Notes under the pieces: generated by a model
The model's input: the letters and a program-made list of their open reading frames with translations, nothing else
The model's database searches: none
What the model was told of the DNA's origin: nothing
Source: Janibacter sp. Soil728
Lineage (GTDB): Bacteria > Actinomycetota > Actinomycetes > Actinomycetales > Dermatophilaceae
Direction of reading: 5' to 3'
Assembly (NCBI RefSeq): GCF_001428305.1
Contig: NZ_LMRZ01000003.1
Location: 382,225-446,224, forward strand
Length of the DNA stretch: 64,000 nt
Program-made: the position numbers and the translations under genes
In this document: positions 11,009-26,377 of the stretch, piece after piece
Layout: every line of letters starts with the position of its first letter
Numbering within the stretch: position 1 is the stretch's first letter

Positions 11009-11073
11009 GACGAGTCCTTCCGGTGGGAGGGTCCGGTGGGCGCCGGACACCTCCACCTCATCACATCGTGGCG

Positions 11074-11874
11074 TCAGCGGTCAGACGTGGTGAGCGCCCG
11101 CAGCGCGGCGATGGTCACCTCGGGCTGCTCCGAGTGGACCCAGTGCCCGGCGTCCTTGACGGTGACGAGCCGCACTCGCGGGAAGAGGCGTCTCATCTGC
11201 GCCTGGTCCTCCTGCGTGACGTACCGCGAGCGCTCGCCCGAGAGCCACAGCACGGGCTCGTCGAAGGGAGGCAGTCCCGCGATCTCGTCCTGCGGCCACC
11301 CGCCGATCGTGGCGATGTCCCGACCGATGACCTCGAGGTTGGGCTGCCAGCGCCAGCCACTCCCTTCGCGGCGGAGGTTCTGCAGGAGGAATCCCCGGAC
11401 CCCCGGGTCCGGCGCGGCCTCCTGCATGGCGGCATCGGCGTCGGCGCGCGACTCGATCGCGTCGAGGTCCATGGCCTGCATTGCCGCGATGTAGGTCTCG
11501 AACTCGGTGAAGCTCGTCGTGGCCGCCGGGGAGATGTCGACGACGCACAGCCGGGACACCAGCTCGGGGTGACGCAGGGTGAGGAGCATCGCGATCTTGC
11601 CGCCCATCGAGTGCCCGACGACGATCCACGGCTCGTCCGGGTCGATGCCGCGCAAGGTGTCCGCGACGGTGTCGGCAGCGGCGACGTAGCCGAAGCGCTC
11701 GGTCCACCCTGAGCGCCCGTGGTCGGGCATGTCCAGCAGCGTCGGCCGAGCGATGTCGGCCAGCCCCTTGGCGATCTGGTTCCAGTTGCGCCCCTGCCCG
11801 AAGAGTCCGTGGCAGAAGGCGATCCGGGGACCTGAGTCACCGGAGGAGACCGCGTGGAGGGTGGGCGAGGTCAT
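11074..11874 (-). CDS. Alpha/beta hydrolase
   Basis: 266-residue hydrolase with an oxyanion-region CHGLFGQG, the nucleophile elbow VGHSMGG (S89), and the catalytic histidine in DAGHWVHSEQP near the C-terminus. It resembles YbfF-type esterases. Its start lies 22 bp from the left attachment repeat of the mobile element, so before insertion this gene stood directly downstream of ffh on the same strand. Insertion has separated it from any ffh read-through. Confidence 0.93.
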   Translation of the reverse strand: MTSPTLHAVSSGDSGPRIAFCHGLFGQGRNWNQIAKGLADIARPTLLDMPDHGRSGWTERFGYVAAADTVADTLRGIDPDEPWIVVGHSMGGKIAMLLTLRHPELVSRLCVVDISPAATTSFTEFETYIAAMQAMDLDAIESRADADAAMQEAAPDPGVRGFLLQNLRREGSGWRWQPNLEVIGRDIATIGGWPQDEIAGLPPFDEPVLWLSGERSRYVTQEDQAQMRRLFPRVRLVTVKDAGHWVHSEQPEVTIAALRALTTSDR

Positions 11875-11895
11875 GTCGACGACGCTCAGCTGCCG

Positions 11896-11912
11896 CCGAG
11901 GAACTTCTCGAA
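11896..11912. other. Left attachment site (attL core)
   Basis: The 17-bp sequence ccgaggaacttctcgaa is identical to the copy inside the 3' end of ffh at 20597. Read on the reverse strand, the bases beyond it continue as codons for FEKFLGGS followed by TGA, which looks like the original ffh terminus left behind by integration. Confidence 0.93.
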
Positions 11913-12064
11913 TGGGCGGGCGTTAGCGCTGTGCACCGTTCGGACTCCTAGCCGTTAGAGCGCATCGTTTCCGAGCGCTGTGGGTCGAAATATCCTCGGT
12001 TAGAGGATGCCCCCGCGATGCGCAAACATCCGGGGGCGTGACGCAGACACTGGAGGTCTCGCGC
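11913..12064. promoter_or_regulatory. Element left end: repeats, hairpin and promoter region
   Basis: Just inside attL there are two copies of agcgctgtg (11925-11933 and 11974-11982); a close relative, agcgctatg, lies near the right end at 20509-20517, so these may be integrase arm sites. A hairpin with gcccccg/cgggggc arms (12009-12015, 12031-12037) precedes the rightward operon and could act as an attenuator. A TATCCT at 11991 is a possible -10 element. Confidence 0.5.
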
Positions 12065-12166
12065 ATGTTCACCCTACCCGCGGCCGTTGCCGCATCCCAG
12101 AACATCGGACTGCTCGGCGCGCTCGTCGTCGTCGCGGTCACCTGCTTCCTCGAGGTGACCCGATGA
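12065..12166 (+). CDS. 33-residue single-span membrane peptide
   Basis: Short ORF starting MFTLPAAVAASQNIGLL with one hydrophobic span and ending CFLEVTR. TGGAGGT lies seven bases before the ATG, a strong ribosome site. Its TGA overlaps the ATG of the next gene (ATGA), so translation is coupled. It leads the rightward operon of the element. No relative is recognised; the good ribosome site and exact overlap are the evidence that it is expressed. Confidence 0.7.
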   Translation: MFTLPAAVAASQNIGLLGALVVVAVTCFLEVTR

Positions 12167-12570
12167 GCACCGCAGCCGACCAGACGGCGCGGCTCGTCGT
12201 GGCCCTCGAGGGCGCGCTCATCGAGCATGGCCACGATGTCGAGGTGCCGGCCAACCTGACCGTGGACGATCTCGACCGGTTCTGCCGTCTGCTCGGCGTG
12301 AAGCCCTCGGACCTCATGGCCCGCATCGAGCAGCAGGACTGCCCTGGGTGGTGCCTTGGCGGTCACCCGGTGAACGATCCGGCGCACCACGTCGGCCTCA
12401 TCTACGCGCGTAGCAACATCACGCTCAGCATGACGCAGGGCCTCGGTCAGGACGTGGCGATCTTCGTCCCCGAGGACGTCGAGCGGGGCCTGACCCCAGA
12501 GCGTGCACGGCACCTCGCGCTGGCCCTGACGATGGCCGCGGACGCAGCAGACGAAGGGGGTCAGCCGTGA
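12163..12570 (+). CDS. DUF6907-like protein
   Basis: 135-residue soluble protein. The centre has a DCPGWCLGGH segment followed by a paired histidine (DPAHH), giving a Cys/His set as in the DUF6907 family common on actinobacterial plasmids and integrated elements. It ends in an alanine-rich helix (RARHLALALTMAADAAD). The ATG at 12163 overlaps the upstream stop and the 3' end overlaps the next GTG. The function of the family is unknown; the cysteines may bind zinc. Confidence 0.78.
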   Translation: MSTAADQTARLVVALEGALIEHGHDVEVPANLTVDDLDRFCRLLGVKPSDLMARIEQQDCPGWCLGGHPVNDPAHHVGLIYARSNITLSMTQGLGQDVAIFVPEDVERGLTPERARHLALALTMAADAADEGGQP

Positions 12571-12677
12571 GCGTGCTCGGCGTCGTCGTCGGCGTATGGC
12601 TCGGCGTGCTCGCGCTCGTCGTCGCATCGGTGGCGCTCGAGGTGTGGGCAGACCGGACGAAGGGGGGCCAGCGGTGA
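12567..12677 (+). CDS. 36-residue single-span membrane peptide
   Basis: Second mini-protein of the operon: a hydrophobic span (VLGVVVGVWLGVLALVVASV) followed by a short charged tail (EVWADRTKGGQR). The GTG at 12567 overlaps the previous stop by four bases (GTGA) and its own TGA overlaps the next GTG the same way, so it is embedded in a tightly coupled four-gene unit. Function unknown. Confidence 0.68.
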   Translation: MSVLGVVVGVWLGVLALVVASVALEVWADRTKGGQR

Positions 12678-12943
12678 GTCAGCAGCTCGAACCGATCGCC
12701 GGCCACTTCCTGCGGGTCACACACGGCCCTGTGCGCGCCTACGTCGACTGCTCCTGTGACCAGCCACCACAGACCGTCCACGCGTCCATGCGGGCAGCAG
12801 AACGCACCGCGCTGCGGCACTACGTCGAGCACGCGCCACCCGGCGACGAGCGGGACCGTGCCGCGCGCCTGCTCGATCAAAGTGTCGACGGCACTTTGAT
12901 CGGCGCCTCGCCGGACCCGAGCGAGGGCGTGGCGACCACCTAG
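12674..12943 (+). CDS. Small hypothetical protein of the element
   Basis: 89 residues, start GTG at 12674 (VSQQLEPIAGHF), overlapping the upstream stop. It contains YVDCSCDQPPQ, a short Cys-x-Cys segment, and a helical TALRHYVEHAPPGDERDRAA region. A perfect 10-bp inverted repeat lies inside the gene at 12875-12901. It is the last gene of the rightward operon, followed by a GC-rich hairpin. Unrecognised. Confidence 0.7.
   Translation: MSQQLEPIAGHFLRVTHGPVRAYVDCSCDQPPQTVHASMRAAERTALRHYVEHAPPGDERDRAARLLDQSVDGTLIGASPDPSEGVATT
12875..12901. repeat. Perfect inverted repeat inside a coding region
   Basis: gatcaaagtg and its exact complement cactttgatc flank a 7-base centre. The repeat falls within the last gene of the rightward operon and uses codons unusual for this genome (AGT, TTG), so the DNA itself may be conserved as a protein-binding site. 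Confidence 0.8.
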
Positions 12944-12946
12944 ACC

Positions 12947-12986
12947 GGCCGCGCGGGTCGTCCCTCCCCCTTCGGCTCGCGCGGCC
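12947..12986 (+). terminator. Hairpin after the rightward operon
   Basis: ggccgcgcg and cgcgcggcc form a 9-bp stem with a 22-base loop four bases past the stop codon of the last gene. There is no T run, so termination strength is uncertain. Confidence 0.55.
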
Positions 12987-13333
12987 ACCCTCCGGGCTCT
13001 CCGGCGTCCACACGGCCTCTCACGGGTCCGTGTGCGCGCCAGGGCCACCCGGCCCGCGTCGTCTCCCATCACGGCTCTAGACGCCAGTAACCAGTAGCCG
13101 CCTGCGAAGTCCCATCGGCCGTGTGTGACAGGCACACGGCAGCACGTAGACCACCGTCTGATCAGCGGCCTACGTGTCCAGCACAGCCCGCGGCCTCACG
13201 GCCAGCGGGCCATGACTGCTGGCCCCTTCCGAGAGGGGTGGCTGGATCGGGGGTTCCCATCTGGGGGGGGGAGCCCAGAGGTCTGCCCCGCTCGCGGGTC
13301 CGCGCCTTGGCGGTGCCTGCTAGCGTCCCGCAC
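12987..13333. promoter_or_regulatory. Non-coding stretch with hairpin and poly-G tract
   Basis: About 350 bp without a supported gene. A hairpin gccgtgtg-(7)-cacacggc lies at 13118-13140. A run of nine G begins at 13263, about 62 bp before the ATG of the next gene, and could vary in length by slippage. No promoter is clear. Confidence 0.5.
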
Positions 13334-13588
13334 ATGGCACGAGATGGCAGGGAGAAGGTCGATCTGATCAGCTCGGAGGACCACGAGCGCATCGGCAAGC
13401 TGCTACTAGAGATCGGCGGCAAGAACGTCTCGTGGGGGGCGCAGGCGCACCTTGATGTGTGGCTAGCAGAATCCCGAATGGAGTCTGAGCGGCGGGCATC
13501 CCAGCGGCTATGGGTGGCGACGTGGGCCCTGGTTGTTGCGACCCTCGGGCTCGTCGCTGCGACCGTCGGGCTCATCTACGCGGGGTAG
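13334..13588 (+). CDS. Small C-terminally anchored membrane protein
   Basis: 84 residues: a charged soluble part (MARDGREKVDLISSEDHER and a helical AHLDVWLAESRMESERRAS stretch) followed by one C-terminal hydrophobic span (WVATWALVVATLGLVAATVG). The topology is that of a tail-anchored or single-pass protein. Its 3' end overlaps the convergent winged-helix gene by 17 bp. No ribosome site is obvious before the ATG at 13334. Unrecognised. Confidence 0.65.
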   Translation: MARDGREKVDLISSEDHERIGKLLLEIGGKNVSWGAQAHLDVWLAESRMESERRASQRLWVATWALVVATLGLVAATVGLIYAG

Positions 13589-13787
13589 ATGCGACCAGCC
13601 GACGTCGTCCGTCGATGACCTCGCTGGACAGGGCAATGCGCCCGGATCGCTCGAGCGAATGAGCCGCGCGACGTATCGAAACCTGCTCGGCCTCGGTGTC
13701 CTCGCAGCTGGTCAGCACCACGCCGTCGTCAGCGGTGCGCACGGCCTCGAGGATCAGCCGCTGCCATCGTCCATGACCTCGGGACAC
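13572..13787 (-). CDS. Small winged-helix-like DNA-binding protein
   Basis: 71 residues from a GTG at 13787 (VSRGHGRWQRLILEAVRTA). The pattern, an opening helix, a VVLTSCEDTEAEQVSIRRAA helix-turn-helix-like segment, then SLERSGRIALSSEVIDGRRR as a wing, fits a compact winged-helix regulator. In an element this size it may control the lysogeny/excision choice or the rightward operon. The frame is open further upstream; the GTG is chosen for the family-like length and a purine-rich AAGGTGG upstream. Assignment is by pattern only. Confidence 0.62.
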   Translation of the reverse strand: MSRGHGRWQRLILEAVRTADDGVVLTSCEDTEAEQVSIRRAAHSLERSGRIALSSEVIDGRRRLVASTPRR

Positions 13788-13976
13788 GCTTTCACCACCT
13801 TCGTTCTGTTCAGACGTAGCACTTGCCGGACCTGTTGAAGCGATTGATCCCCACCACAGGCGGGATGCAGGGCCATTCGTGCGGTTCCGCCCCACGTGGA
13901 AAAGAGGAATGGGGGGTAAAGCCCTATCCCAGAGGGTGCCGTCAGGACGACGAGGGGGTGGCCCCCCACCATCGCG

Positions 13977-14015
13977 CGGGGCGAGAGGTGTGCTCGCGCG
14001 TTGCCTCTCGCCCCG
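13977..14015 (-). terminator. Hairpin terminator of the element's leftward genes
   Basis: cggggcgagagg and cctctcgccccg form a perfect 12-bp stem with a 15-base loop, 7 bp past the stop of the gene at 14022. It probably ends the leftward transcript. Confidence 0.75.
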
Positions 14016-14021
14016 TCGAGG

Positions 14022-14411
14022 TCAGCCGGTGACGCGCGCCTTCAGGGCTGCGAGGTGCGCACGCTGCTCGTTGTCTGCAGAGTTGAGCGGGTCGAGCGCC
14101 TCGATCTTGCTGTCCAGGGCGGCGTTGATCGTCGCGGCCTGCGCGTTGATGGCAGCAGTCAGGGCTCGCTCGTATCGCTGCGCTGCGATGCGGTGACCTG
14201 TGAGCATCGAGGACTGGGCGAGCTTGGCCAGCGCTACGGCCTGCACCGTCGCGTCGTCGGCGCCTGATCCGTAGCTGTCTGCCACTGCGTCGCTGTCTGT
14301 GGGCTGTGGCTGTCGATCCTCGAACGTGGCTAGGGTGCCGGATGCCGTGGTCACGGGTGCGGGAATGGTGATGCCGGCTGCGATCAGCTCGGCGTGCAAC
14401 TGCTTGGACAT
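14022..14411 (-). CDS. Helical protein of the element, paralogue A
   Basis: 129 residues from the ATG at 14411, preceded by an excellent AAGGAGGG site. The N-terminus (MSKQLHAELIAAGITIPAPV) is followed by a DAVADSY...TVQAVALAKLAQ stretch and a long Ala/Gln helix. The first 70 or so residues align by eye with the N-terminal part of the neighbouring 259-residue protein (L-A-x-G-I/V-x-x-P-x-x-V, then DA-AxAxA-Y and VAL-x-x-A), so the two look like duplicated relatives. Unknown function; helical composition resembles structural or scaffold-like proteins but gives no proof. Confidence 0.75.
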   Translation of the reverse strand: MSKQLHAELIAAGITIPAPVTTASGTLATFEDRQPQPTDSDAVADSYGSGADDATVQAVALAKLAQSSMLTGHRIAAQRYERALTAAINAQAATINAALDSKIEALDPLNSADNEQRAHLAALKARVTG

Positions 14412-14607
14412 GTGCCCTCCTTGGGCGTTGGGTGAGTGCTGCAGGGGGTTGAACAGGGGGAGCCGGTGTGGCGCTGGGTGGTCTTGGCGGGAGAAAGGAT
14501 TGCCATTCATGGCACCCACTCGCACCCATCGTTCGCGGACCTAGGGAGGCGACATCACGAGCCACCATCCGCGGGACGTTGACGCCACACCGGCAAGTCA
14601 TGGGGGT

Positions 14608-15387
14608 CTAGCTGCTCATCAGTGATCCACGCTTGGCGCCGGTCGTCTCCGACCACGCCGAGTCAGCAGCCGCTGACGCCTTGGCCCGCTCGGCAGCGTG
14701 GACCTCGGTAGCCGCGGCCTGTGCCTGCGCTGGGGTGGGGAACCACAGCTGAGCACCGGCTCGCACGCCTCGCACGAACAGGTCGACAGGTCCGGTCGCG
14801 GGACGCATGGTCAGTGCTTGGCGCACGGGGCGCGGGTCGCTCCACGTTCCACAGTCCCAGCCACTGACTGCGTACTCAGCACCTGCGGTGACCATGCCTC
14901 GCAGGGCGTACATGGCTGCAAGGTCGGTGGCGTTGATGTCGAGCCGTGCGACGCCCTCGGCCTCCTCACCTCGGCCGTTGCGGATCAGCACGTTCAGGTC
15001 GTGGGTTTCCACGGCTGCGGCCTGCGTGACTGCGGCCATGAGCGGCTCAGCCACAGCGGCCAGGGCGGTCACGAGGTCGTCACCGTTGGCCCGGATGTCG
15101 GCAAGGACTGCGATGCCGGCGAGGATGCGGCCCTCGGTCCATGCCTCGAGGCGGTCGGTGATGGTGGCGAGGTCGAGGGCTACGCGGTCGACGGCCTTGG
15201 TGTCGGCCGTGGCGTATGCCTGCGCGAGGGCCTTCGCGTCGGCGCGCTGCGGTCGCATCTTCTCCACGACGTCGAGGTGTGCGAGAGCGGTGACGACACT
15301 GCTGGGCAGGTCCACGCCTACTGCCTGCAGGTCACCCGCGATCTTGCGTGCGCGGTCGGGTGCGGTCTTGCGCTGGAGGTTGCTCAT
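14608..15387 (-). CDS. Helical protein of the element, paralogue B
   Basis: 259 residues, starting MSNLQRKTAPDRARKIAGDL. The N-terminal 90 residues resemble the 129-residue neighbour; the rest is mainly helical (ALAAVAEPLMAAVTQAAA) with a C-terminal part around SGWDCGTWSDPRPVRQAL and LFVRGVRAGAQLWFP. About 196 bp separate it from paralogue A, which has its own ribosome site. It ends two bases before the next gene region, so it belongs to the leftward operon. Unrecognised; seen only as part of this mobile element. Confidence 0.75.
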   Translation of the reverse strand: MSNLQRKTAPDRARKIAGDLQAVGVDLPSSVVTALAHLDVVEKMRPQRADAKALAQAYATADTKAVDRVALDLATITDRLEAWTEGRILAGIAVLADIRANGDDLVTALAAVAEPLMAAVTQAAAVETHDLNVLIRNGRGEEAEGVARLDINATDLAAMYALRGMVTAGAEYAVSGWDCGTWSDPRPVRQALTMRPATGPVDLFVRGVRAGAQLWFPTPAQAQAAATEVHAAERAKASAAADSAWSETTGAKRGSLMSS

Positions 15388-15389
15388 GG

Positions 15390-15662
15390 TCAGTTCTCTT
15401 CTCTGCCGCTGAGCGGCGTGTAGGTGCTGGTGATGTGGTCGGCCTGGTTGGTGTGGCCCGCGATGTTCTCGAAGGTCTCGCCTTGGGTGGTGCCGATCCG
15501 TGTGCCGTCGCGGCGAGATCGCAGCGCTTCCACCACGGACTCGGGGGGCTGCGCGGTGCCGTTGCGCATGAGCTCTTGGATTGCTGCTCGTGCTGCGGTG
15601 TGGCGCTCCCGTCTGGTGCGGTCGTTGTCGCTGAGTTCGCCTAGGTCATGGCTGAGGCTCAT
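15390..15662 (-). CDS. Hypothetical element protein, 90 residues
   Basis: Charged, mostly helical protein starting MSLSHDLGELSDNDRTRRER, with an ARAAIQELMRNGTAQPPESV centre and a polar C-terminus. Its ATG overlaps the stop of the 54-residue gene upstream (ATGA), so translation is coupled. No motif is recognised. Confidence 0.7.
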   Translation of the reverse strand: MSLSHDLGELSDNDRTRRERHTAARAAIQELMRNGTAQPPESVVEALRSRRDGTRIGTTQGETFENIAGHTNQADHITSTYTPLSGREEN

Positions 15663-15823
15663 TGGTCGGTCTCCTTCGTTTCCTTGTGGGTGTCTTCTGG
15701 GTGGGCCATCTCGTCGGCCAGGGCGTGCAGCGCCTCAGCGATGCGTGTCCAGTGCGCGTGACCGCCACGGGCAGCAGCGGCCTCGATGATCGCGGCGGCG
15801 GCTCGCAGGGTCGCGCCCGTCAT
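15659..15823 (-). CDS. Hypothetical element protein, 54 residues
   Basis: Starts MTGATLRAAAAIIEAAAARG at 15823 and ends in an acidic/lysine tail (HKETKETDQ). Start and stop overlap the neighbouring genes by four bases each. It looks like a short helical adapter; function unknown. Confidence 0.68.
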   Translation of the reverse strand: MTGATLRAAAAIIEAAAARGGHAHWTRIAEALHALADEMAHPEDTHKETKETDQ

Positions 15824-16080
15824 GCCGCCCTCTTCCTGCGCTTCGGTGGGGTCATGCCCCTGTCGATGCCCCCGTAGACGCCTACCTCTTCGCTGTCGTC
15901 GCCAGCCGCCCGGCAGACCTGCGCGACGGGGCAGCCCTGGCACAGCACAGCGGCTCGGGCTCGGTCTGCGTCATCGTCGGATGTCCACCACGTGTGGTCC
16001 GCAGGCTCAGCGCACCTCACGCGCCGGCCATTGGCTGCGAGGTTGAGTAGTGCGCGGTCGAGGTCAGCACGAGCGGTCAT
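15820..16080 (-). CDS. WhiB-like iron-sulfur regulator
   Basis: 86-residue Wbl protein. Four cysteines fit the [4Fe-4S] pattern: C23, then the CQGC pair (C47, C50) and C56, followed by GVYGGIDRG (67-75), the conserved G-rich turn that contacts sigma factor region 4, and a basic PKRRKRAA tail. Wbl proteins are restricted to actinobacteria and their phages, where some act as dominant regulators of host development or superinfection. Its place in the middle of the leftward operon, overlapping both neighbours by four bases, marks it as an element gene, probably tuning transcription during replication or transfer. Confidence 0.92.
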   Translation of the reverse strand: MTARADLDRALLNLAANGRRVRCAEPADHTWWTSDDDADRARAAVLCQGCPVAQVCRAAGDDSEEVGVYGGIDRGMTPPKRRKRAA

Positions 16081-16298
16081 GGCAGCAGCCCGTCAGGGTC
16101 GGTGAGCACGTACCCGTGCAGCGCGGTACAGCTGCTCGCGCGGTGCCCCAGGAAGTCACGGGCGATGCTCAGGTCACGACCGCCCCCGTGTGAGTGAGCG
16201 CGCCCGCAGTGGGGACAGACGATGTGCAGGATGACCTGTCCGTTGCCGTGCTCGGTGATGTGGGTCAGGGGTGCGTCTCGTTGGTTCGGGTGCGTCAT
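16077..16298 (-). CDS. Small zinc-finger-like protein
   Basis: 73 residues from the ATG at 16298 (MTHPNQRDAPLTHITEHG). It holds a CPHCGRAHSHGG knuckle and later SSCTALHGY, giving a likely zinc site of Cys and His. Similar small CPxCG-His proteins occur next to replication genes on actinobacterial phages and plasmids. Overlaps the ATPase gene and whiB by four bases. Function unknown. Confidence 0.72.
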   Translation of the reverse strand: MTHPNQRDAPLTHITEHGNGQVILHIVCPHCGRAHSHGGGRDLSIARDFLGHRASSCTALHGYVLTDPDGLLP

Positions 16299-18025
16299 GC
16301 GGTCCTCTCCTTGGTCAGCTCTTCGCAGGTCATGCAGCGGTCGGGGGCAAGCGCCCAACCGTGTCTGGGGCACTCGGGGTGACGAAGTGACGACGAAAAC
16401 GCCTCTTCTCTGGTTGTGCCCCTACTGCCCTCTATTTCTTCCAAGTTGAAGACCGAGAGATTGGGGGGTTTTCTCGTCACCTCGTCACCTTTTGGAGGAC
16501 TTCCGCCCGGCTCTAGGTCGACAGGCGGTGACGAAAGTGGTGACGAGAGGGTGACGGAATCCGCCGCGGCACTTCTCGTCACCGTTTCGTCACCCGTCTC
16601 GTCACCCTTTGGGGTCGGCGGTGAGATCTCCCAGACCTGGCCGCGCTTCGTCTTCTCGTCAGTCAGTTCGACAGACCATCCGACCTTGCGAAGGGAGGGT
16701 GCGCGACGCTTCAGCTCCGACGTGAGGGCACGAGCGCCAGACGGCCAGCCCTTGGGCGGACGGGTGTCCCCGAGAGTCGCCTCGAGCAACTCCAGCAGCT
16801 CTGCGGATGCACCGCGCCACGGTGAGGTCACGGCTCCTGTCAGGGCAGCCAACACGGGGGTGCTCGCCACCGCGTCGGACGCCAGCGCGCCGGCCTGGTC
16901 CCGGTAGCGACCTAGCCCGTCCGAGCCTTGGATGAGGTCGACGGCTGCGAGGACGTGAGCGAAGTCGGCCATGCGGGGCGCGCGCTCGAGCCTGATCGTC
17001 GGCAGCACCTCGAGCACCCGAGTCGTCAGGTCCAGCAGTCCACCGAGAATGTCGGGCAGCGCGTCCTGCCACCGCTGGGTCAGGTCATCGTCTCGGGCCC
17101 GGTCGGTCTCTTCGATCCGATGCAGGTCCACGGTCACGAGCCGGTCGGCCAGGTCATCGCGCACCGAGCCCACGTCGATGCCGTTGAGGATCACCACGCG
17201 CTTGAACTGGAAGACGAACAGGTCACCATCGGTGAACAGGGACCGCTTGACGTCACCGTCACCCGTGGCGGCACGGCACAGAGCGTCACTGAGCCAGTCA
17301 GGCAGCACCGAGAGGTTGTCCACGGCCACGACGTGAGACCCAAACGCGGCAGTCGTCCACGAGTCCAGATCGCGTGGTGGCTTGCGCAGCGGCACCGTGG
17401 ACGCGTCGACGATCGAGGCAATGATCTTCGCCGCGGTGCTCTTGCCCGAACCCTGCTCGCCAGTCAGCAGCAAGATCGGGTGCGGGATGTCCGGCATGAG
17501 CGACGCCACCATGAACGCGGTCAGCACCGCCCGGTCGGCCGGCGCCACATTCAGCAGCGACCACAGACGCGACAGATCACCTTGGGCAACCGGACGGGCC
17601 AGCGGGGCGGTGAGAGCCGTCCGACGATGCAGCACGGGCGCCTCGTCGACGATCTCCCAACCGTTGGCACCGATGCGCACCAGCTGGCCCGTGTCGTCGC
17701 CCAGGTCAAGCCACAACTGATCGTCATAGTCGGCCACCCGCAACGCCAGCGCCCGCGCGGTCGCGCGCAGCGCCAGACCCTGCAGCGCCTGCATGGCGTC
17801 CTGCAATGCCTGCTGCGGTGGGGGCGATCCGTGCTCGTCGAGGTAGGCCGCTGCCAGCTCGGCCCGCAGCGATCCGCCCTTGCCGGTGAGCATCACCATG
17901 ACGCGGGGACCGAACAGGGGCAGCGCGTAACAGTGGCCCGTCTCTGAGACACCGAACTCGTAGCGATCACGAGCGATCTCGGTCAGCAGCGCGGCCGCGG
18001 ACTTCTTCTTGGGGGTCTCGCTCAT
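16295..18025 (-). CDS. AAA+/helicase-like ATPase of the element, candidate replication initiator
   Basis: 576 residues. An N-terminal domain of about 150 residues precedes a P-loop ATPase core: Walker A GEQGSGKST (189-197), Walker B-like HVVAVDNL (231-238) and a sensor-like VVILNGID (277-284), as in phage and satellite replication ATPases (D5/SF3-like). Residues about 440-550 are low-complexity and contain repeated GDE/VT units encoded by the iteron array. The C-terminus has a CPRHGW...CMTC zinc-knuckle pattern. It lies between overlapping small genes and is the largest gene of the element. No separate primase domain was recognised. Likely job: melt or unwind the element's origin after excision. 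This is inference from motif and context. Confidence 0.8.
   Translation of the reverse strand: MSETPKKKSAAALLTEIARDRYEFGVSETGHCYALPLFGPRVMVMLTGKGGSLRAELAAAYLDEHGSPPPQQALQDAMQALQGLALRATARALALRVADYDDQLWLDLGDDTGQLVRIGANGWEIVDEAPVLHRRTALTAPLARPVAQGDLSRLWSLLNVAPADRAVLTAFMVASLMPDIPHPILLLTGEQGSGKSTAAKIIASIVDASTVPLRKPPRDLDSWTTAAFGSHVVAVDNLSVLPDWLSDALCRAATGDGDVKRSLFTDGDLFVFQFKRVVILNGIDVGSVRDDLADRLVTVDLHRIEETDRARDDDLTQRWQDALPDILGGLLDLTTRVLEVLPTIRLERAPRMADFAHVLAAVDLIQGSDGLGRYRDQAGALASDAVASTPVLAALTGAVTSPWRGASAELLELLEATLGDTRPPKGWPSGARALTSELKRRAPSLRKVGWSVELTDEKTKRGQVWEISPPTPKGDETGDETVTRSAAADSVTLSSPLSSPPVDLEPGGSPPKGDEVTRKPPNLSVFNLEEIEGSRGTTREEAFSSSLRHPECPRHGWALAPDRCMTCEELTKERTA
16378..16606. repeat. Iteron array, candidate origin of replication
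   Basis: Eight exact copies of tcgtcacc/ggtgacga (starts 16378, 16474, 16482, 16527, 16539, 16576, 16587, 16599) plus two one-mismatch copies (16386 agtgacga, 16550 ggtgacgg). Orientation alternates in blocks: two reverse, two forward, three reverse, three forward. Spacings of 8, 11 and 12 bp recur. A relatively AT-rich stretch lies at about 16394-16473. The array is inside the 3' part of the ATPase gene. Confidence 0.82.
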
Positions 18026-18276
18026 GCTGCACCCCCTTCGCCGAACCGGGCGTCGATACGCGCACGACGGGCGGCGGCCTCGGCAGGGTCGACCTCGGGG
18101 ACACGGATCATCGCGGTGACGACATCGGCGGCCGCACGATGAGCAGCGGATGCCTCAGCGTCAGCGCGGCGCCGGCCCTCTTCCACGCCGATCGTCCAGC
18201 CGGCGCACCACGCGTCGACGTAGTGGTGCCACTGCTCGGCAGGCATGAGCTCGTGCACGTCGAGGGGGTCATTCAT
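18022..18276 (-). CDS. Hypothetical element protein, 84 residues
   Basis: Starts MNDPLDVHELMPAEQWHHYV and continues with an AWCAGWTIGVEEGRRRADAE helix and an Arg/Ala-rich end. Its stop overlaps the ATPase start (ATGA) and its start region overlaps the gene upstream, so it is the lead-in to the ATPase in a coupled operon. Unrecognised. Confidence 0.7.
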   Translation of the reverse strand: MNDPLDVHELMPAEQWHHYVDAWCAGWTIGVEEGRRRADAEASAAHRAAADVVTAMIRVPEVDPAEAAARRARIDARFGEGGAA

Positions 18277-18457
18277 GCTGACCCCCTTCGCCGTCGAGGT
18301 CGACGTGGCCCACGGGCTGCAGCTGCACCAAGGCGACCGACGCCGGCACACCACGCTTGGCGGCCAGGTCGAGCGCGCGCATGGCGGCCGCGATCGTGAA
18401 CACGACCTTGCGACGCACACCGCCGTTACGCAGGCCGGTGACGACGAGCAGCGCCAT
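18269..18457 (-). CDS. Hypothetical element protein, about 62 residues (start uncertain)
   Basis: From the ATG at 18457 the product reads MALLVVTGLRNGGVRRKVVF, then a helical AAAMRALDLAAKRG and VALVQLQPVGHVDLDGEGG. The frame is open to 18649 and a GTG at 18550 is an alternative start; neither has a good ribosome site. It overlaps the next gene. No family recognised; size and charge would suit a recombination directionality factor, but there is no direct evidence. Confidence 0.55.
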   Translation of the reverse strand: MALLVVTGLRNGGVRRKVVFTIAAAMRALDLAAKRGVPASVALVQLQPVGHVDLDGEGGQHE

Positions 18458-18572
18458 GTCAGACCGCTGCAGGGAAGCATCGAGTGCGCCTAGACTGGAC
18501 TCAGATCGCGTTGGCCCGTTGATCTTCTGGACGTCCCCTCGGACCCACACCGGGGGGCGTTCGCTTGTCTGC

Positions 18573-18872
18573 TCAGGCAATGAGACCACCGGCCAGGGAC
18601 CGCAGCTCGGTCTCGGCGGCAACTGCAGCCTCGGTGGCCTCGCGGGCACGACGTCGGGACTGTGCCGACTTCAGCGCCAGCCGCTTGAAGTGAGCGCTGC
18701 GCAGGCTCTTGGCCCGCTGGGGGTCTCCCCCGGCCTGCTCGAGGAACTTCGCATCGAGGGCACGGCGGGCGGGTGCAGTGCGGGCAGAACGGTCCTCGGT
18801 GTTGGCCCAGGACATGTCGGCCGCCATCGAGGCGGCCAACCTTCGTTCTGCGTCAGAAACGTCAAAGCGCAC
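18573..18872 (-). CDS. Conserved small protein of actinobacterial mobile elements
   Basis: 99 residues, very basic. It contains SWANTEDRSARTAPARRAL, a segment I know as recurrent in small hypothetical proteins of actinobacterial phages and integrated elements, followed by an Arg-rich helix (KSAQSRRRAREATEAA). Likely nucleic-acid associated. A 115-bp gap separates it from the next gene downstream, so it may be a separate transcription unit. Function unknown. Confidence 0.72.
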   Translation of the reverse strand: MRFDVSDAERRLAASMAADMSWANTEDRSARTAPARRALDAKFLEQAGGDPQRAKSLRSAHFKRLALKSAQSRRRAREATEAAVAAETELRSLAGGLIA

Positions 18873-18947
18873 GACGGCTCTCCTAAGGGAAAGCCTGCGT
18901 GCGCTACTTCACAGGTGTGTTTCGTCGTCTTACGACGCGCTGTGCCT

Positions 18948-19532
18948 TCAGGGTAGCACTGCGCTCAGACGCCGGTACATCGAGACACGCCCAGACAGTC
19001 CACTCTCAGGAACCCTGTAGATCGTGCTCGAGACACTCACGGGCCGGTCCGCCAGCAGTTCGCCACGTCTGTTGCGTCGTCCGACGCCCACCACTTGGCG
19101 CGCATCGAAAATCGTGCGACAGGTGCCGCAGCCCATTGGAGCCCACGGCCCCCCAGCTCGGTGGGCATCGACACCGGGCTCAGCCTGCAACTGCTCGGAC
19201 GACATCGCCCGGGCAGGCACTCTCAGTCGCGGCAATACTGCAGCTAACGCCGACAGGTCGCCATCACGTCGGGCGTTGGCTCGGCGCGTGAACTCGAGAA
19301 TGGTCGCCACCGTCTCGGCATCTTCGGCCCGTGCCGCCACCTCGAAATCCTCCAACGCGGTCGAAAACACGATGTCGGCAGCGCCCGCCGGCGAATGGTC
19401 ATAGCCAGCCGTCCACACCAAGACCCCGGTCTCGACTCCAATTCTGCGGCCGCAGCGGCATCGGATCGGACTCCCCGGAGGTGCCGGCTCTGACGCGATC
19501 TCTTCGCCCATGAGCTCGTCCCACAGATTCAC
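18948..19532 (-). CDS. Hypothetical protein co-translated with the integrase
   Basis: About 194 residues. The GTG at 19532 overlaps the integrase stop (GTGA) behind a GGGGGAG site; an internal ATG at 19511 would give 187 residues. An N-terminal RCRCGRRIGVETG and a central GCGTCRTIF provide four cysteines, a likely zinc site. The rest is mixed. Tight coupling to the integrase suggests a role in integration/excision or in element stability, but no family is recognised. Confidence 0.7.
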   Translation of the reverse strand: MNLWDELMGEEIASEPAPPGSPIRCRCGRRIGVETGVLVWTAGYDHSPAGAADIVFSTALEDFEVAARAEDAETVATILEFTRRANARRDGDLSALAAVLPRLRVPARAMSSEQLQAEPGVDAHRAGGPWAPMGCGTCRTIFDARQVVGVGRRNRRGELLADRPVSVSSTIYRVPESGLSGRVSMYRRLSAVLP

Positions 19533-20479
19533 AGCTCCCCCAGGTTCAATCGCTTGGCTTCGTCGGCGGCACGAGCGGACGCCTGCGCCTTGGTGTATCG
19601 CATGAGCATTTGCGGTGATCGCCAGCCAGCCACCGACATGAGACCGCCCTCGGACCCGCCCTTGGCCAGCCAGCGATGGGCTGCGGTGTGGCGCATGCGG
19701 TGTGGGTGGAATCCCTGCACGCCTGCGGCCTCCGCGCGCTTGCCCAGCGCGTCGTACAGCCCGGCGTATTGCAGTGGGCCACCACGGGCAGCCAGCCAGA
19801 ATGTCGAGGTGGTCGAGTCCTTGTGCCTCTGGCGGGCGCGCACGTACTTGCCCAGCCGTGCGGCAGCCTGTGGGGACAGCGGGACCGTGCGGCCCTGTCG
19901 TGTCTTCGTCCTCGTAATGCTCAGGCCGGGCGGGTTGTCCTTCCAATGCACGTCGGCAACATCGAGCCCCAGCAACTCCCCCGCACGCATGCCCGTCTCT
20001 GCCAGTACATGAATCATCGCCAGGTCGCGCACGTCGATGTAGGCGCGCTCGGCCCCGGCCCCCTTCGGCGTCTGGCAGGCGGCGATCATGGCGGCGATCT
20101 GCTCATCCGTCAGCGGCTCGACAAGCTTCTCGTCAACGGCAGGCTGCGGCATGTCCACAAAAGGGTTGCTGTCGATCTCGTCCTCGTCCAGCAGCCACTT
20201 GGTGAACTGTCGAACGGCGGTCAGCCGAGATCGCGCGGTATACCCCTGCAGCCCCTGCTCGTCTCGCAGGTAGGCCAGCCAGGCGGACAGCACGCGCCGG
20301 CGGATCGGCTCATCGTGACCGTGGGTGCGGCAGAACTCGAGGAACTGGTCGACGCCGCGCCGGTAGGTCACCAGCGTGTTGTCCGACTTGCCCATGCCCC
20401 GCAGGTGCACCAACCAGAACTCCACCAGCTCGAGGGCAGCCTCGAGCGTCAGACCGGGTTCTTCAGGTTGCTTCGCCAC
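19529..20479 (-). CDS. int: Tyrosine site-specific recombinase (integrase)
   Basis: 316-residue phage-type integrase that would insert and excise the element. An N-terminal SAM-like core-binding domain (residues about 10-100) precedes the catalytic domain with R165 (ETGMRAGELLGL), K192 (RTKTRQGRTVPL), H260-x-x-R263 (HPHRMRHTAAH), W286 (AGWRSPQ) and the nucleophile Y295 (MRYTKA). Start ATG at 20479. It lies 117 bp from attR and reads leftward, in the same direction as ffh, so ffh read-through could supply basal expression. XerC/D-like overall length. Confidence 0.96.
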   Translation of the reverse strand: MAKQPEEPGLTLEAALELVEFWLVHLRGMGKSDNTLVTYRRGVDQFLEFCRTHGHDEPIRRRVLSAWLAYLRDEQGLQGYTARSRLTAVRQFTKWLLDEDEIDSNPFVDMPQPAVDEKLVEPLTDEQIAAMIAACQTPKGAGAERAYIDVRDLAMIHVLAETGMRAGELLGLDVADVHWKDNPPGLSITRTKTRQGRTVPLSPQAAARLGKYVRARQRHKDSTTSTFWLAARGGPLQYAGLYDALGKRAEAAGVQGFHPHRMRHTAAHRWLAKGGSEGGLMSVAGWRSPQMLMRYTKAQASARAADEAKRLNLGEL

Positions 20480-20596
20480 ACCCCTAGCGTACCAATATCT
20501 TCACTATGAGCGCTATGCGTGCTAGCGTTCCTCACATCAGGGCTTCACAGCCCCGGAATGACGGGCAATATCGGCTAGTTCCCCTCAGGTCACTGA
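20480..20596. promoter_or_regulatory. Right-end region between integrase and attR
   Basis: Contains ctagcgtacc (20484-20493) and ctagcgttcc (20522-20531), a short direct repeat, plus agcgctatg at 20509, related to the left-end agcgctgtg copies. These are candidate integrase arm or excision-factor sites and overlap where the int promoter must lie. A weak gggct-tcac-agccc hairpin is at 20540-20553. Confidence 0.5.
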
Positions 20597-22206
20597 CCGA
20601 GGAACTTCTCGAAGCCCTTGGGCAGCTGGCTCGGGTCGAGGTCGGCAGGCGGACCCGCCGGACCGCCCGCGCCTCCCCCACCGAAGGCCGCACCCGCCGG
20701 ACCGGCCGGGCCGCGACCTGCTGCCCGCTCCGCTGCCTCGTGCTCCTGCTGAGCGCGCTTGGCCGGGTTGCCGGACTTGCCCTTCTTCTTCACCTGCTTG
20801 GTCTGCTTCTTGCGACCACCGCCCATGCCGGGCATCCCGGGCATCCCCGGCATGCCACCGCCACGGGCGAGCTGCTTCATCATCTTCTGCGCCTCGCCGA
20901 AGCGCTCGAGCAGCTGGTTGATCTCGGAGACGGTCACGCCGGCGCCCTTGGCGATGCGTGAGCGGCGCGAGCCGTTGATCTGCTTGGGGTGCGTGCGCTC
21001 GAAGGGGGTCATCGAGCGCACCATCGCCTCGACCCGGTCGAACTCGCGCTCGTCGAGGTTGTCCAGCTGTGCCGACATCTGGCCCATGCCGGGCATCATC
21101 TTGAGCATCGACTTCAGCGAGCCCATGCGCTTGAGCGCTGACATCTGCTGGAGGAAGTCGTCGAAGGTGAAGTCCTCCGCCGAGAGGAACTTGCGCTGCA
21201 TCTCCTCGGCCTCGCCGGCCTCGAAGGCGCGCTCGGCCTGCTCGATGAGGGTGAGGACGTCACCCATGTCGAGGATGCGGCTGGCCATCCGGTCGGGGTG
21301 GAAGACCTCGATGTCCTTGGTCTGCTCACCCGTGGAGGCGAACATGATCGGTCGACCCGTGGTCCCGGCCACCGACAGGGCCGCACCACCGCGGGCGTCA
21401 CCATCGAGCTTGGACAGGACGACACCGGTGAAGTCGACACCCTCGGCGAAGGCCCTGGCCGTCTCGACCGCGGCCTGACCGATCATCGCGTCGATGACGA
21501 AGAGGACCTCGTCCGGGTTGATCGCGGCACGGATGTCCGCGGCCTGCTGCATCAGCTCGGCGTCGACCGCCAGGCGACCGGCGGTGTCGACGATGACGAC
21601 GTCGTGCAGCTGGGACTGTGCGTGCGCGATGCCTGCCCGACTGACGGAGACGGGGTCTCCGAAGGAGCGGGTGCCCTCTCCTGACTCGACGACGGCGTCG
21701 TGACCGCCGGTGTTGCCGCGCTCGGGGGCGAAGACGGGGACGCCAGCGCGCTGGCCGGTCACCTCGAGCTGCGTGACGGCATTGGGGCGCTGCAGGTCGG
21801 CGGCGACGAGGATGGGCGTGTGGCCCTGCTGCTTGAGCCAGGCGCCGAGCTTGCCGGCGAAGGTCGTCTTGCCGGAGCCCTGGAGGCCGGCGAGCATGAT
21901 GACGGTCGGCGGACGCTTGGCGAACTGGATGGTCCGCGTGTTGCCGCCGAGGATCGTCACGAGCTCCTCGTTGACGATCTTGATGACCTGCTGGGCCGGG
22001 TTGAGGGCCCCGCTCACCTCGGCGCCGGTGGCGCGCTCGCGCACCGCGGAGGTGAACTCCTTGACGACGGGCAGGGCGACATCGGCGTCGATGAGGGCCA
22101 TCCGGATGTCGCGGACGGTCTTGTTGACGTCGGACTCGGACAGGCGCCCCTTGCCGCGAAGGTTCTTGAAGGTCGCGGTCAGACGGTCGGACAGGCTGGT
22201 GAACAC
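20590..22206 (-). CDS. ffh: Signal recognition particle protein Ffh
   Basis: GTPase subunit of SRP that binds signal peptides and 4.5S RNA and docks with FtsY. 538 residues from the GTG at 22206 (VFTSLSDRLTATFKNLRGKG): N domain, then G domain with LAGLQGSGKTT, DTAGRL and SKLDGDARGG, then the M domain with methionine-rich LKSMLKMMPGM and the RNA-binding SRRSRIAKGAGV. A Gly/Pro/Lys-rich tail ends KGFEKFLGQ. A 40-residue insertion-like stretch, ERGNTGGHDAVVESGEGTRS, is in the G domain. The last two codons are supplied by the mobile element; the original GlyGlySer end survives at attL. No clear ribosome site, so the message may be leaderless. Confidence 0.97.
   Translation of the reverse strand: MFTSLSDRLTATFKNLRGKGRLSESDVNKTVRDIRMALIDADVALPVVKEFTSAVRERATGAEVSGALNPAQQVIKIVNEELVTILGGNTRTIQFAKRPPTVIMLAGLQGSGKTTFAGKLGAWLKQQGHTPILVAADLQRPNAVTQLEVTGQRAGVPVFAPERGNTGGHDAVVESGEGTRSFGDPVSVSRAGIAHAQSQLHDVVIVDTAGRLAVDAELMQQAADIRAAINPDEVLFVIDAMIGQAAVETARAFAEGVDFTGVVLSKLDGDARGGAALSVAGTTGRPIMFASTGEQTKDIEVFHPDRMASRILDMGDVLTLIEQAERAFEAGEAEEMQRKFLSAEDFTFDDFLQQMSALKRMGSLKSMLKMMPGMGQMSAQLDNLDEREFDRVEAMVRSMTPFERTHPKQINGSRRSRIAKGAGVTVSEINQLLERFGEAQKMMKQLARGGGMPGMPGMPGMGGGRKKQTKQVKKKGKSGNPAKRAQQEHEAAERAAGRGPAGPAGAAFGGGGAGGPAGPPADLDPSQLPKGFEKFLGQ
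20597..20613. other. Right attachment site (attR core), inside ffh
   Basis: Second copy of ccgaggaacttctcgaa. In the ffh frame it encodes most of FEKFLG. The codons beyond it (GGT, CAG, TGA) come from the element, so integration preserves an intact ffh reading frame with a changed last residue. Confidence 0.93.
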
Positions 22207-22243
22207 CCGGCCTAGGGTACTTGCCCGCGAGCACTGCCCGTGC

Positions 22244-24589
22244 TCAGGCGGTGTCGCAGGCGTCGATGACGGCCGAGACGGCCCGTCCCACGGCCGCTGG
22301 GGCCAGCTCGCGCCCCTGCGCATCCGTGACGTAGAAGGTGTCGAGGGTCTGCCCGGCGAAGGTCGAGATGTGGGCCGAGCGGATCCGCAGCCCCTCCCGC
22401 GTCAGGGCCCTCCCGAGGTCGTGCAGCAGGCCAGCCCTGTCGTGCGAGCGCACCTCGAGCACGGTGGCTCCGCTGCCGGCGCTCGGCAGGACGAAGGCGC
22501 TGGTGCCGGCGGTGGCGACCGACGACATCGGGTCGTTCCGGCGTGGCGACAGCGCCGTCAGAGCGGCTCGGTCGCCGGCCTCGAGCCGGGTCAGCCCCGC
22601 CGCCAGCCGGCTGGTCTCGGGCGCGTCACCGCCCGGGGACTCGACGAACCACTCGTCCACCGCGATGCCCTCGGTGGTGGCCAGCCGGGCCCGACGCACG
22701 GTCATGCCGTGGGCGGCGAGGAGTCCGGCGGTGTCGGCGAAGAGCCCCACCCGGTCGCGGCAGTGGACGGTCACCGTCCATCCCCCCGGTCCGGGCTCGA
22801 CGCGTACGTGCACCCGTCCGGCCGTGACGTCCTCGAGGGCAGTGGGGTCCATGGTCGGTGCAGGGGCCAGCGGTGGAAGGTGTGGCGCACGGCCCGTGAG
22901 GCGCTCTCGCACCAGTCCGGTCAGGGAGTCGAGCAGGCTTGCCCGCCAGTCGGTCCACGCCACGGGCCCGGCCGCGCGTGCATCGGCGATCGTCAGCGCC
23001 CGCAACAGCTCGAAGGTCTGCGGGTCCTCCCCCACCAGCCGGCACACGGAGTCCACGGTCGCCGGGTCCGACAGGTCCCGGCGGGTGGCGGTCTCGATGA
23101 GCGTCAGGTGCTCGCGGACGAGCAGGACGACGGTGGCACGCTCCTCGTCGGGCAGGCCCCATCGCCGCAGCACGAGATCGGCGATGTCGCCCCCGGTGCG
23201 TGAGTGGTCCCGGGCTCCAGCGATCTTGCCGATGTCGTGCAGGAGGGCTGCGAGGTGGAGCAGGTCGGCTCGCGCGACATCGCGCCCGACGACCGTGGCC
23301 TGCGAGACCGTCTCGAGGAGGTGTCGCTCGACGGTGTGCCGATGGATCGGGTGGTGCTGCGGCCGGCCACGCACCGCCGCCCACTCGGGCAGCCACCGCT
23401 CGACCACGCCGACCTGGTCCAGGCCCTCCCAGACGCTCGGCAGACCTCGCCCCGCGGCGAGCAGGTCCGTGAGCAGGTCCCGGTGCTGCTGGCTCCAAGG
23501 ACGCGATGGGTCGGGGCAGGCAGCGAGGTTGGTGAGCGTCTGCGGCGAGAGCGGCAGCCCGGCACGGGCCGCGACCACCGCAGCACGAAGGGGGAGGGTC
23601 GGGTCGGCGCTGGCGAGCCGGGTCGAGCCGAGGACCGCTTCCCCGTCGTGGACGAAGAGTCCGTGGCCGAGCGGTGTCATCGTCGGGCGCCGGGGGCCGA
23701 CCCGCAGGGTGCGTGCCCGCTGGCTCTGGCCGGCGCGTCGCATGGTCGCCTCGAGCGCCCAGGCGATGGTGCGAGCCGACGTGGAGACGGTGGTGAGCAG
23801 CTCGTCGCGATCAGCGAGGCCGAGCAGCGCCGCCACAGCGTCGTGCTCCTCACGCAGCAGACGATCACGCCCGCGTCCGGTCACGACGTGCAGGGCGTCC
23901 CGCACGTCGAGGAGCCGCTCGAGCGCCGGGCCCACCGACCCGTGGGGGCGGTCGGTCAGCCACGCCCTGGTCAGGGCGTCGAGCACCGTCACATCACGCA
24001 GGCCGCCGAGCGCCTCCTTCAGGTCCGGCTCGACCTGCTGGCTGAGCTCTCCGTGCCGGTGGTGTCGCGCGCGGACGGACTCGACGAACTGCGGCAGCCG
24101 GGTCCGTGCGCCCGACCGCCAGTCGTGGGCGACGGTCGCCCGTACCCCGGCGACCAGCTCCTCATCGCCCGCGACGAGCGACAGGTCGAGCAGACCGACC
24201 GCAGCCGACAGGTCGTGACGGGCGATGTCCCGGCACTCGCGGCTGGAGCGCACGGAGTGGTCGAGGGAGAGCCCCGAGTCCCAGATCGGGTACCAGAGGC
24301 GGTCGGCCATCTCGGTGAGGGACTCCCCCTTCGTGCTGCGACCGTCGTGGACGAGCACCAGATCGAGGTCGCTGAGCGGGCCCGACGTCCCGCGCCCGAG
24401 GGAGCCGACGGCCGCGAGCGCGATGCCCTCGTGCTCACCGACGGCACCGGCGTAGAGCTCTCCCAGCCAGGCGCGGGTCGCGTCGGCGATGGCGGCCCGC
24501 CGGGCCGGGCCGGCGCCCGGGAGGGTGAACTCCCGGGTGCCGGCGAGGTCGAGGCGGGTGGCCCGCAGGTCGTCTCCGGTCGCTGTCAT
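22244..24589 (-). CDS. glnD: PII uridylyl/adenylyltransferase GlnD
   Basis: Modifies and demodifies the PII protein in response to glutamine. 781 residues: nucleotidyltransferase domain with GSLGRGTSGPLSDLDLVLVHD-type motif (Gly-Ser then the DLD metal pair, about residues 62-82), a GlnD linker, an HD domain (HRHTVERHLLE, LLHDIGKIAGARDHS) and two C-terminal ACT domains (WTVTVHCRDRVGLFADTAGLL; LEVRSHDRAGLLHDLGRAL). In studied actinobacteria GlnD adenylylates rather than uridylylates PII. Third gene of amtB-glnK-glnD, 13 bp after glnK. Confidence 0.96.
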   Translation of the reverse strand: MTATGDDLRATRLDLAGTREFTLPGAGPARRAAIADATRAWLGELYAGAVGEHEGIALAAVGSLGRGTSGPLSDLDLVLVHDGRSTKGESLTEMADRLWYPIWDSGLSLDHSVRSSRECRDIARHDLSAAVGLLDLSLVAGDEELVAGVRATVAHDWRSGARTRLPQFVESVRARHHRHGELSQQVEPDLKEALGGLRDVTVLDALTRAWLTDRPHGSVGPALERLLDVRDALHVVTGRGRDRLLREEHDAVAALLGLADRDELLTTVSTSARTIAWALEATMRRAGQSQRARTLRVGPRRPTMTPLGHGLFVHDGEAVLGSTRLASADPTLPLRAAVVAARAGLPLSPQTLTNLAACPDPSRPWSQQHRDLLTDLLAAGRGLPSVWEGLDQVGVVERWLPEWAAVRGRPQHHPIHRHTVERHLLETVSQATVVGRDVARADLLHLAALLHDIGKIAGARDHSRTGGDIADLVLRRWGLPDEERATVVLLVREHLTLIETATRRDLSDPATVDSVCRLVGEDPQTFELLRALTIADARAAGPVAWTDWRASLLDSLTGLVRERLTGRAPHLPPLAPAPTMDPTALEDVTAGRVHVRVEPGPGGWTVTVHCRDRVGLFADTAGLLAAHGMTVRRARLATTEGIAVDEWFVESPGGDAPETSRLAAGLTRLEAGDRAALTALSPRRNDPMSSVATAGTSAFVLPSAGSGATVLEVRSHDRAGLLHDLGRALTREGLRIRSAHISTFAGQTLDTFYVTDAQGRELAPAAVGRAVSAVIDACDTA

Positions 24590-24602
24590 GAGGCTCCGAG
24601 GC

Positions 24603-26377
<1,775 letters not shown>

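Follow-up and report, generated by a model that had tools for sequence, protein, structure and literature searches.

What kind of mobile element carries its own integrase and replication ATPase and no genes for a virion or for conjugation? The question is raised by a 64,000-nucleotide stretch of the genome of Janibacter sp. Soil728 (3.64 Mb), referred to here as the window, in which an 8.7-kb unit occupies positions 11896-20613 in ffh. An initial annotation had regarded this unit as either a phage satellite or an autonomous integrative plasmid. We propose that the first of these is probably correct, and that the element is a minimal phage satellite that resembles the phage-inducible chromosomal minimalist islands (PICMIs) and needs an outside helper. 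Sister elements with this backbone have terS, a major capsid gene on its own or a tape measure gene between their repeats, and for this reason a satellite is favoured over an integrative plasmid.

Insertion at the 3' end of ffh

The ends of the integrated element are formed by an exact 17-bp direct repeat, CCGAGGAACTTCTCGAA, at 11896-11912 and 20597-20613. The longest word common to both 201-bp end regions is 17 bp; 300 rounds of dinucleotide shuffling gave 7.8 on average and 12 at most. This core is the 3' end of ffh and encodes FEKFLG in the right copy, which lies within ffh (20590-22323, minus strand). The present end of the gene reads FEKFLGQ*, with Q* supplied by the element, and the left copy runs on into the displaced native end, FEKFLGGS*. 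Just outside the left repeat is an alpha/beta-hydrolase gene that directly adjoins ffh in 14 of 15 other genomes of the genus, with 0-49 bp from the ffh stop to the start of the hydrolase-gene match; in the 15th genome the contig stops 13 bp past ffh. The arrangement of repeats and ffh ends, together with the empty sites in same-genus genomes, identifies the 8.7-kb unit as an insertion that has left its target gene intact, and the compact unit bounded by direct repeats that the initial annotation described in ffh is therefore upheld. By its anatomy, as read from the DNA, the element is mobile and a real integrated unit.

Two further motifs accompany the core, CACAGCGCT on the attR side and GTCATTCC on the attL side. 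Their spacings inside attR (12 nt from the core, with a second copy 49 nt beyond the first) and inside attL (34 nt) are identical across all four elements found at ffh (see below). These paired sites are what arm-type integrase sites would be expected to look like, and they may be bound by the integrase.

A family of elements at ffh and rpoD

When 186 genomes of the family were searched with the integrase, 16 gave a match at E <= 1e-60, and four of these 16 loci, the window's own included, are at ffh. The other three belong to three other genera of the family, encode integrases 70-77% identical to that of the window, and have second ends that delimit elements of 9.80 kb (G183, one core mismatch), 10.08 kb (G020) and 9.66 kb (G031). 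The look at other ffh 3' ends that the initial annotation had proposed yielded these three elements of 9.66-10.08 kb with matching ends, and ffh, which had been called an unusual insertion site, is a recurrent target of four elements and not a one-off. A sample of 396 genomes of the order, searched at E <= 1e-120, contained no new ffh-type integrase; its three hits were the window's genome, G020 and G183.

All 12 remaining integrase loci follow the stop codon of a gene with the ending of a primary sigma factor, read as rpoD/sigA, and the Pfam sigma-70 regions were confirmed in the one rpoD-site locus tested (L036). In the integrase tree the four ffh rows are split from 13 rpoD rows (the 12 loci and the viral contig L083) with support of 100/100. 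In eight of the 12 rpoD loci the rpoD end recurs nearby, exactly or inexactly, giving 12 two-ended elements (four at ffh, eight at rpoD, some of the latter delimited by inexact repeats) of 8.7, 9.8, 10.1, 9.7, 10.4, 8.2, 9.6, 10.6, 6.1, 8.8, 9.5 and 16.6 kb. The remaining rpoD-site loci were left out of the 12-element matrix: L027, L040 and L042 have no second end in the sequence examined, and in L037 the only candidate second end is 30 kb away. The unit thus does occur elsewhere with matching ends, in 11 further two-ended elements, with the inexact repeats of some rpoD ends borne in mind. With an integrase of this clade, a position at the 3' end of a protein gene and terminal repeats, the window element is, from its sequence features, a member of this ffh/rpoD family.

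A shared backbone and a variable packaging slot

Backbone genes were counted with profiles against six frames of the 12 elements, and the counts were rerun with profiles built without the element being scored; family-library scans took in part of the proteins of the 12 elements. The integrase profile matched 12/12 (full profiles only), and full and leave-one-out profiles agreed for p99 (11/12), WhiB (10/12), p152 (9/12), rgl (7/12) and terS (4/12). A gene on the opposite strand next to attR was recovered in 8/12 with full profiles and 3/12 with leave-one-out profiles (a fourth, L041, was borderline at 0.01), a drop that we counted against our own reading. The window element was matched by profiles built without it for p99 (3e-43), WhiB (6e-27), p152 (5e-16) and the attR-side gene (1e-9), and so carries the backbone. 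A primase/helicase profile matched six of the 12 elements, with Pfam D5_N and DUF5906 in all five tested; DUF3631 proteins take its place in two others and G183 has a Toprim-type protein. An open reading frame (ORF) whose start lies on the integrase stop is found in nine of the 12, which is weak evidence because a CTG codon before TGA creates a GTG start by itself, so that the overlap is partly forced by local codons.

Several elements carry a packaging or structural gene in addition to this backbone. terS (phrog_1496) was found in G183, G031, L041 and L029 (2.3e-15 to 1.4e-23), a single HK97-type capsid gene (PF05065) in L031 and L039 (4.7e-26 and 1.7e-18), a tail tape measure in the terS carrier L029 (2.6e-83) and HNH in L035. 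The terS, capsid and tape measure genes all lie inside the repeats, and eight of the 12 delimited elements have no terS match. Apart from replication proteins, the ORFs of at least 400 aa in the 12 elements comprise only the capsid of L031 and the tape measure, and therefore none is left for a typical large terminase or portal. The expectation that homologues would lack structural genes held for these large genes and failed for the single structural or packaging genes within the repeats. Phage satellites have just such a gene content, a shared backbone with a variable packaging slot (terS, capsid or tape measure), and on this basis we read the 12 elements as satellite-like.

A further explanation is that the window element is a decayed prophage that formerly had a full virion set. 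Its phage-type integrase, p99 and WhiB would fit such an origin, and scans of its ORFs gave none of the virion, packaging or lysis genes of a prophage. Decay is, however, difficult to reconcile with the uniform sizes (10 of the 12 at 8.2-10.7 kb, the others 6.1 and 16.6 kb), the matching ends, the common small backbone and the lack, in all 12 elements, of any ORF of at least 400 aa assignable to a large terminase or portal, and we consider it very improbable.

Some members of the family and of its surroundings merit separate mention. L029 (with L075), oriented 9492-26106, is the 16.6-kb rpoD-site element in which terS and a 1305-aa tape measure occur together, and by reading it has a 221-aa protein like one in L030; the viral contig L083, at rpoD, also has a tape measure. 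The lone HK97-type capsid genes of L031 and L039 are in 8-9-kb elements in which none of the other ORFs is long enough to be a typical large terminase or portal. The cargo of the G183 element includes a 221-aa potassium-type ion channel (L024:16868-17533; PF07885, 2.6e-16). Among viral contigs, L084 and L085 have the integrase-p99 pair, with terS twice in the former and TerL and a portal-protease-capsid fusion in the latter, and L087, in which the locus begins at p99, has TerL.

Predicted replication functions and links to phages and plasmids

The contents that the initial annotation listed were confirmed: a tyrosine integrase (PF00589), WhiB (PF02467), a 576-aa P-loop ATPase and a 194-aa ORF. 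The ATPase shares 42% identity with an ATP-binding protein of a Streptomyces plasmid, the gene for which adjoins a primase/polymerase, 40% with a segment of a 759-aa protein encoded at the rpoD-site locus L027 and 31% with the primase/helicase of Microbacterium phage Zeta1847. Its nearest relative, at 65%, is in L007, a 5.9-kb contig binned as Thermoleophilia that also bears HNH and terS. A search of phage records with the ATPase gave one distant phage only, viral contigs gave no match, and a PDB sequence search gave weak ABC-type P-loop matches only (best E 0.053). An AlphaFold model from a two-sequence alignment had a predicted local distance difference test (pLDDT) score of 36 and, being unusable, was not used. 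The protein is read as a helicase from the company it keeps and its P-loop, not from a solved fold.

The iterons reported in this gene are real. Eight copies of GGTGACGA lie in 371 bp at its 3' end, where 1000 shuffles gave at most one; four further copies are elsewhere in the element and 15 in the remaining 55 kb of the window. The eight are arranged over both strands as three direct copies, two exact and one imperfect inverted copies, a tight direct pair and one more, and L007 has eight at the same place in its ATPase gene (three direct, three inverted and a tight direct pair). In six other elements iteron-like words were weak, with 0 to 4 copies, near the shuffle maximum. We take the cluster as a candidate replication origin. 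In L007 we note that positions 2800-4022, beside HNH and terS, hold several fragments of helical-type proteins in both orientations, which could reflect rearrangement or assembly trouble.

These predicted replication functions are the argument for an autonomous integrative plasmid, spread by natural transformation or mobilised by other plasmids without any phage: the iterons are plasmid-like and, outside L007, the ATPase is closest to Streptomyces plasmid proteins, one of them adjoining a primase/polymerase. Against this, family scans of the ORFs gave no partition family, no relaxase and no TraB/FtsK, the last also being the mark of actinomycete integrative and conjugative elements, and the backbone relatives bear terS, capsid or tape measure genes. 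p99 (phrog_2842) has homologues in 144 Mycobacterium phage records and in Streptomyces phage Kromp, and the integrase search likewise matched 144 Mycobacterium phage records. We therefore regard a plasmid as quite unlikely. In both phage records opened (Kromp and Bruin), p99 directly follows a tyrosine integrase. The model of p99 is all-helical (pLDDT 91) and has no significant PDB match (best E 2.8). A role as excision factor was considered and is unsupported, since in mycobacteriophage Bruin the annotated recombination directionality factor is a different gene, gp42.

Predicted packaging and a putative helper

As the initial annotation had stated, the scanned ORFs of the window element, larger antisense ORFs included, gave no match to a capsid, terminase, lysis, relaxase or FtsK/TraB family, and the terS profile had no match in its six frames. 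The element has two helical-type ORFs, alike over 60 N-terminal residues (35%, E 1e-7 to 3e-7 in a set of 14 sequences compared with no composition correction), a likeness that makes their description as paralogues likely and stops short of proving it. In blastp comparisons within this 14-sequence set, likewise uncorrected for composition, the 259-aa protein also weakly resembled the proteins before terS in L041 (3e-6) and G183 (7e-5); it had no match in phage records. The searches proposed in the initial annotation were productive for the 194-aa protein (L039) and the ATPase (L007, the plasmid protein and Zeta1847), whereas the helical link was lost in leave-one-out profiles.

One explanation for the missing terS is loss of the packaging module from a satellite that can no longer move, with the second helical gene and cargo ORFs now occupying the place of the relatives' terS. 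Some relatives do have terS or another packaging gene at that place, the second helical ORF is similar to an N-terminal portion of the first, and the six frames hold no trace of terS. Set against this, the integrase, ATPase and WhiB genes and both helical ORFs have uninterrupted reading frames, the core, arm motifs and iterons are intact, and absence of terS is common in the family (8/12), so that we think such a loss unlikely. PICMIs, moreover, are packaged although no terS, sid or ppi homologue was found in them (PMC10803314), and absence of such genes therefore does not exclude a working satellite. A more speculative proposal is that the WhiB-bearing actinobacterial satellites at ffh and rpoD exchange individual helper parts (terS, major capsid or tape measure) and that the helical pair of the window copy is instead a new way of redirecting helper packaging; this we offer tentatively, as a rather doubtful possibility.

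For the satellite that we favour, the integrase, together with arm sites flanking the core that it would bind, is predicted to insert the circle into the ffh 3' end, and the replacement gene end brought by the element would keep Ffh intact; the insertion and the replaced end are seen in the sequence. Arrival of a helper phage would presumably lead to excision. Replication may start at the iteron cluster with which the ATPase gene ends, with the ATPase as origin-binding helicase and both primase and polymerase provided from outside. The element would then be packaged into helper particles, either without a gene of its own for this, as in PICMIs, or via the helical protein pair. WhiB and the helix-turn-helix (HTH)-like gene on the opposite strand near attR are putative regulators.

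Several observations weigh against a helper-dependent satellite. No terS, capsid or scaffold gene was recognised in the window copy (cos and pac sites were not searched for), phage records hold no close DNA relative of the element, and L007, its nearest ATPase relative, is a single contig of a metagenome-assembled genome without element ends or integrase. Leave-one-out profiles failed to recover the helical family of the window, G183 and L041 (0/12), for which reason the helical protein was not used as a shared backbone part. No helper was identified: a PF10145 tape measure is absent from the host genome (other tape measure families were not searched), and its one PF03354 TerL sits in a second small element. 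As no helper was detected in the host genome, it would be external or of an undetected kind. The second element (L078, G000:C3:6667-16612), outside the window, is about 10 kb long and lies beside a gene read as glnA; it has an integrase, a small HTH-like ORF, an AAA_25 ATPase, TerL, an SPP1-type portal, an HK97 capsid and a head-completion gene. On reading it has no tail genes, and from these genes it looks like a capsid-forming phage-inducible chromosomal island (cf-PICI).

Features of the element

The genes and sites of the element are collected below. PADLOC gave no defence genes among 10 ORFs.

Table 1. Sites and genes of the ffh element, in window coordinates from attR to attL.
Feature	Position	Strand	Basis
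attR core	11896..11912	-	continues into displaced native ffh end FEKFLGGS*
Candidate arm-type integrase site CACAGCGCT	11925..11933	-	12 nt from core; same 9-mer and distance in 4/4 ffh elements
Second copy of CACAGCGCT arm motif	11974..11982	-	49 nt from first; exact here, one mismatch at same place in other 3 ffh elements
Regulator-like gene adjoining attR, opposite strand	12163..12570	+	weak Cro/C1 HTH (HTH_26 0.0036 on longer reading, under curated cut-off) and CxxWC C-terminus; related genes on same side and strand, 1e-9 leave-one-out
115-aa ORF	12596..12943	+	no PHROG or PADLOC match
155-aa ORF, hydrophobic C-terminus	13121..13588	+	C-terminus by reading; no PHROG or PADLOC match
107-aa ORF, cargo or regulator candidate	13572..13895	-	no family match
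Helical-type protein 2, 129 aa (longer reading 167 aa)	14022..14411	-	resembles protein 1 over 60 residues
Helical-type protein 1, 259 aa, no assigned role	14608..15387	-	weak blastp likeness to proteins before terS in L041, G183
90-aa ORF	15390..15662	-	no family match
WhiB-like regulator, 86 aa	15820..16080	-	PF02467 9e-8; WhiB in 10/12 elements
73-aa ORF between ATPase and WhiB	16077..16298	-	gene call alone
Replication ATPase, 576 aa, P-loop GEQGSGKST	16295..18025	-	42% to Streptomyces plasmid protein; 31% to Zeta1847 primase/helicase; 65% to L007
Iteron cluster, 8 x GGTGACGA, candidate replication origin	16378..16606	.	inside 3' end of ATPase gene; shuffles; L007 layout
Small backbone ORF (p84/p152)	18022..18276	-	5e-16, left out of own profile; 9/12 elements, some just 2e-3 to 3e-3
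Small backbone ORF (rgl profile)	18269..18457	-	9e-10, profile built without it; 7/12 elements; no PHROG match
p99, all-helical protein of phrog_2842	18573..18872	-	phrog_2842 1.2e-18; model pLDDT 91; 11/12 elements
194-aa ORF, no assigned function	18948..19532	-	start overlaps integrase stop by 4 nt; no PHROG or Pfam match; homologue in 1/11 other elements (L039, 3.1e-19)
Tyrosine integrase, 316 aa	19529..20479	-	PF00589 1.1e-26; 4 ffh-site integrases form one side of branch, 100/100
Candidate arm-type site GTCATTCC, attL side	20555..20562	-	34 nt past core; same offset in 4/4 ffh elements, one copy per element
attL core	20597..20613	-	inside ffh 3' end; exact 17-bp repeat of 11896-11912; ffh end FEKFLGQ*

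Relation to known satellites

Classical phage-inducible chromosomal islands (PICIs) combine an integrase with a replication gene and origin of their own; they lack a complete set of virion or lysis genes and measure roughly 8-15 kb. The window element has all of these (integrase, own replication gene with a predicted origin, no virion or lysis set, and the size), and lacks a recognisable terS or gene for redirecting capsid size, for which the six-frame terS profile and the PHROG and Pfam scans were negative; the helical proteins, to which no role is assigned, remain. Among the closest known systems are the PICMIs of Vibrionaceae (PMC10803314), which are likewise small, have 17-bp direct repeats beside a protein gene, an integrase with an overlapping gene and a replication gene, and for which no terS or capsid-remodelling gene is reported. 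They differ in host phylum, in site (fis, not ffh), in having a primase where the window element has an ATPase without primase family match, and in having AlpA rather than WhiB. A helper and packaging have been demonstrated for PICMIs (PMC10803314); for the window element both are predicted. Neither AlpA nor the DUF3987/DUF5906 primase was present among the Pfam-scanned ORFs of the window element, and DUF5906 does occur in its sisters.

Among actinobacterial systems, the candidate PICIs of Mycobacterium share with the window element an integrase and few virion genes, and some have helicase, terminase or scaffold genes; they are defined by a major capsid gene, and the three tyrosine-integrase examples shown are at tRNA genes (PMC10654092). 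The window element, with no capsid gene and a site in ffh, departs from this definition, which L031 and L039 fit better. The Streptomyces phage satellites Mulch and Flayer are also actinobacterial and one has a tyrosine integrase, but they possess a capsid and packaging set while lacking a primase homologue (PMC10690885), whereas the window element has a replication ATPase and no such set. cf-PICIs, as described in PMC10690885, are integrase-bearing too, and L085 ties the integrase-p99 pair to a TerL/portal/capsid module; the window element differs in having none of their capsid and packaging set, its ORF scans giving no TerL, portal or capsid. For Actinobacteria it has also been suggested that an element shorter than 15 kb may be a satellite (PMC10023795).

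Searches of open-licence papers found no description of an ffh- or rpoD-site satellite, and nothing on rpoD-site satellites or on satellites in Dermatophilaceae; literature on ffh and attB named no ffh-site element in its titles or the opening lines of its abstracts. The statement that the element was of an unrecognised kind was too strong, since satellites are a known kind, although it holds for the ffh/rpoD family, which is apparently undescribed.

Satellites of actinobacterial phages are little charted, and the family delimited here has two fixed sites, a conserved attachment-site anatomy and an interchangeable packaging slot. With such a slot in a delimited family it can be asked which parts of a helper a satellite needs to carry itself and which ones can be borrowed, and the window copy stands near the lower limit of satellite content. 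The integrases of the family could in addition serve as ffh- and rpoD-targeted integration tools in actinobacteria.

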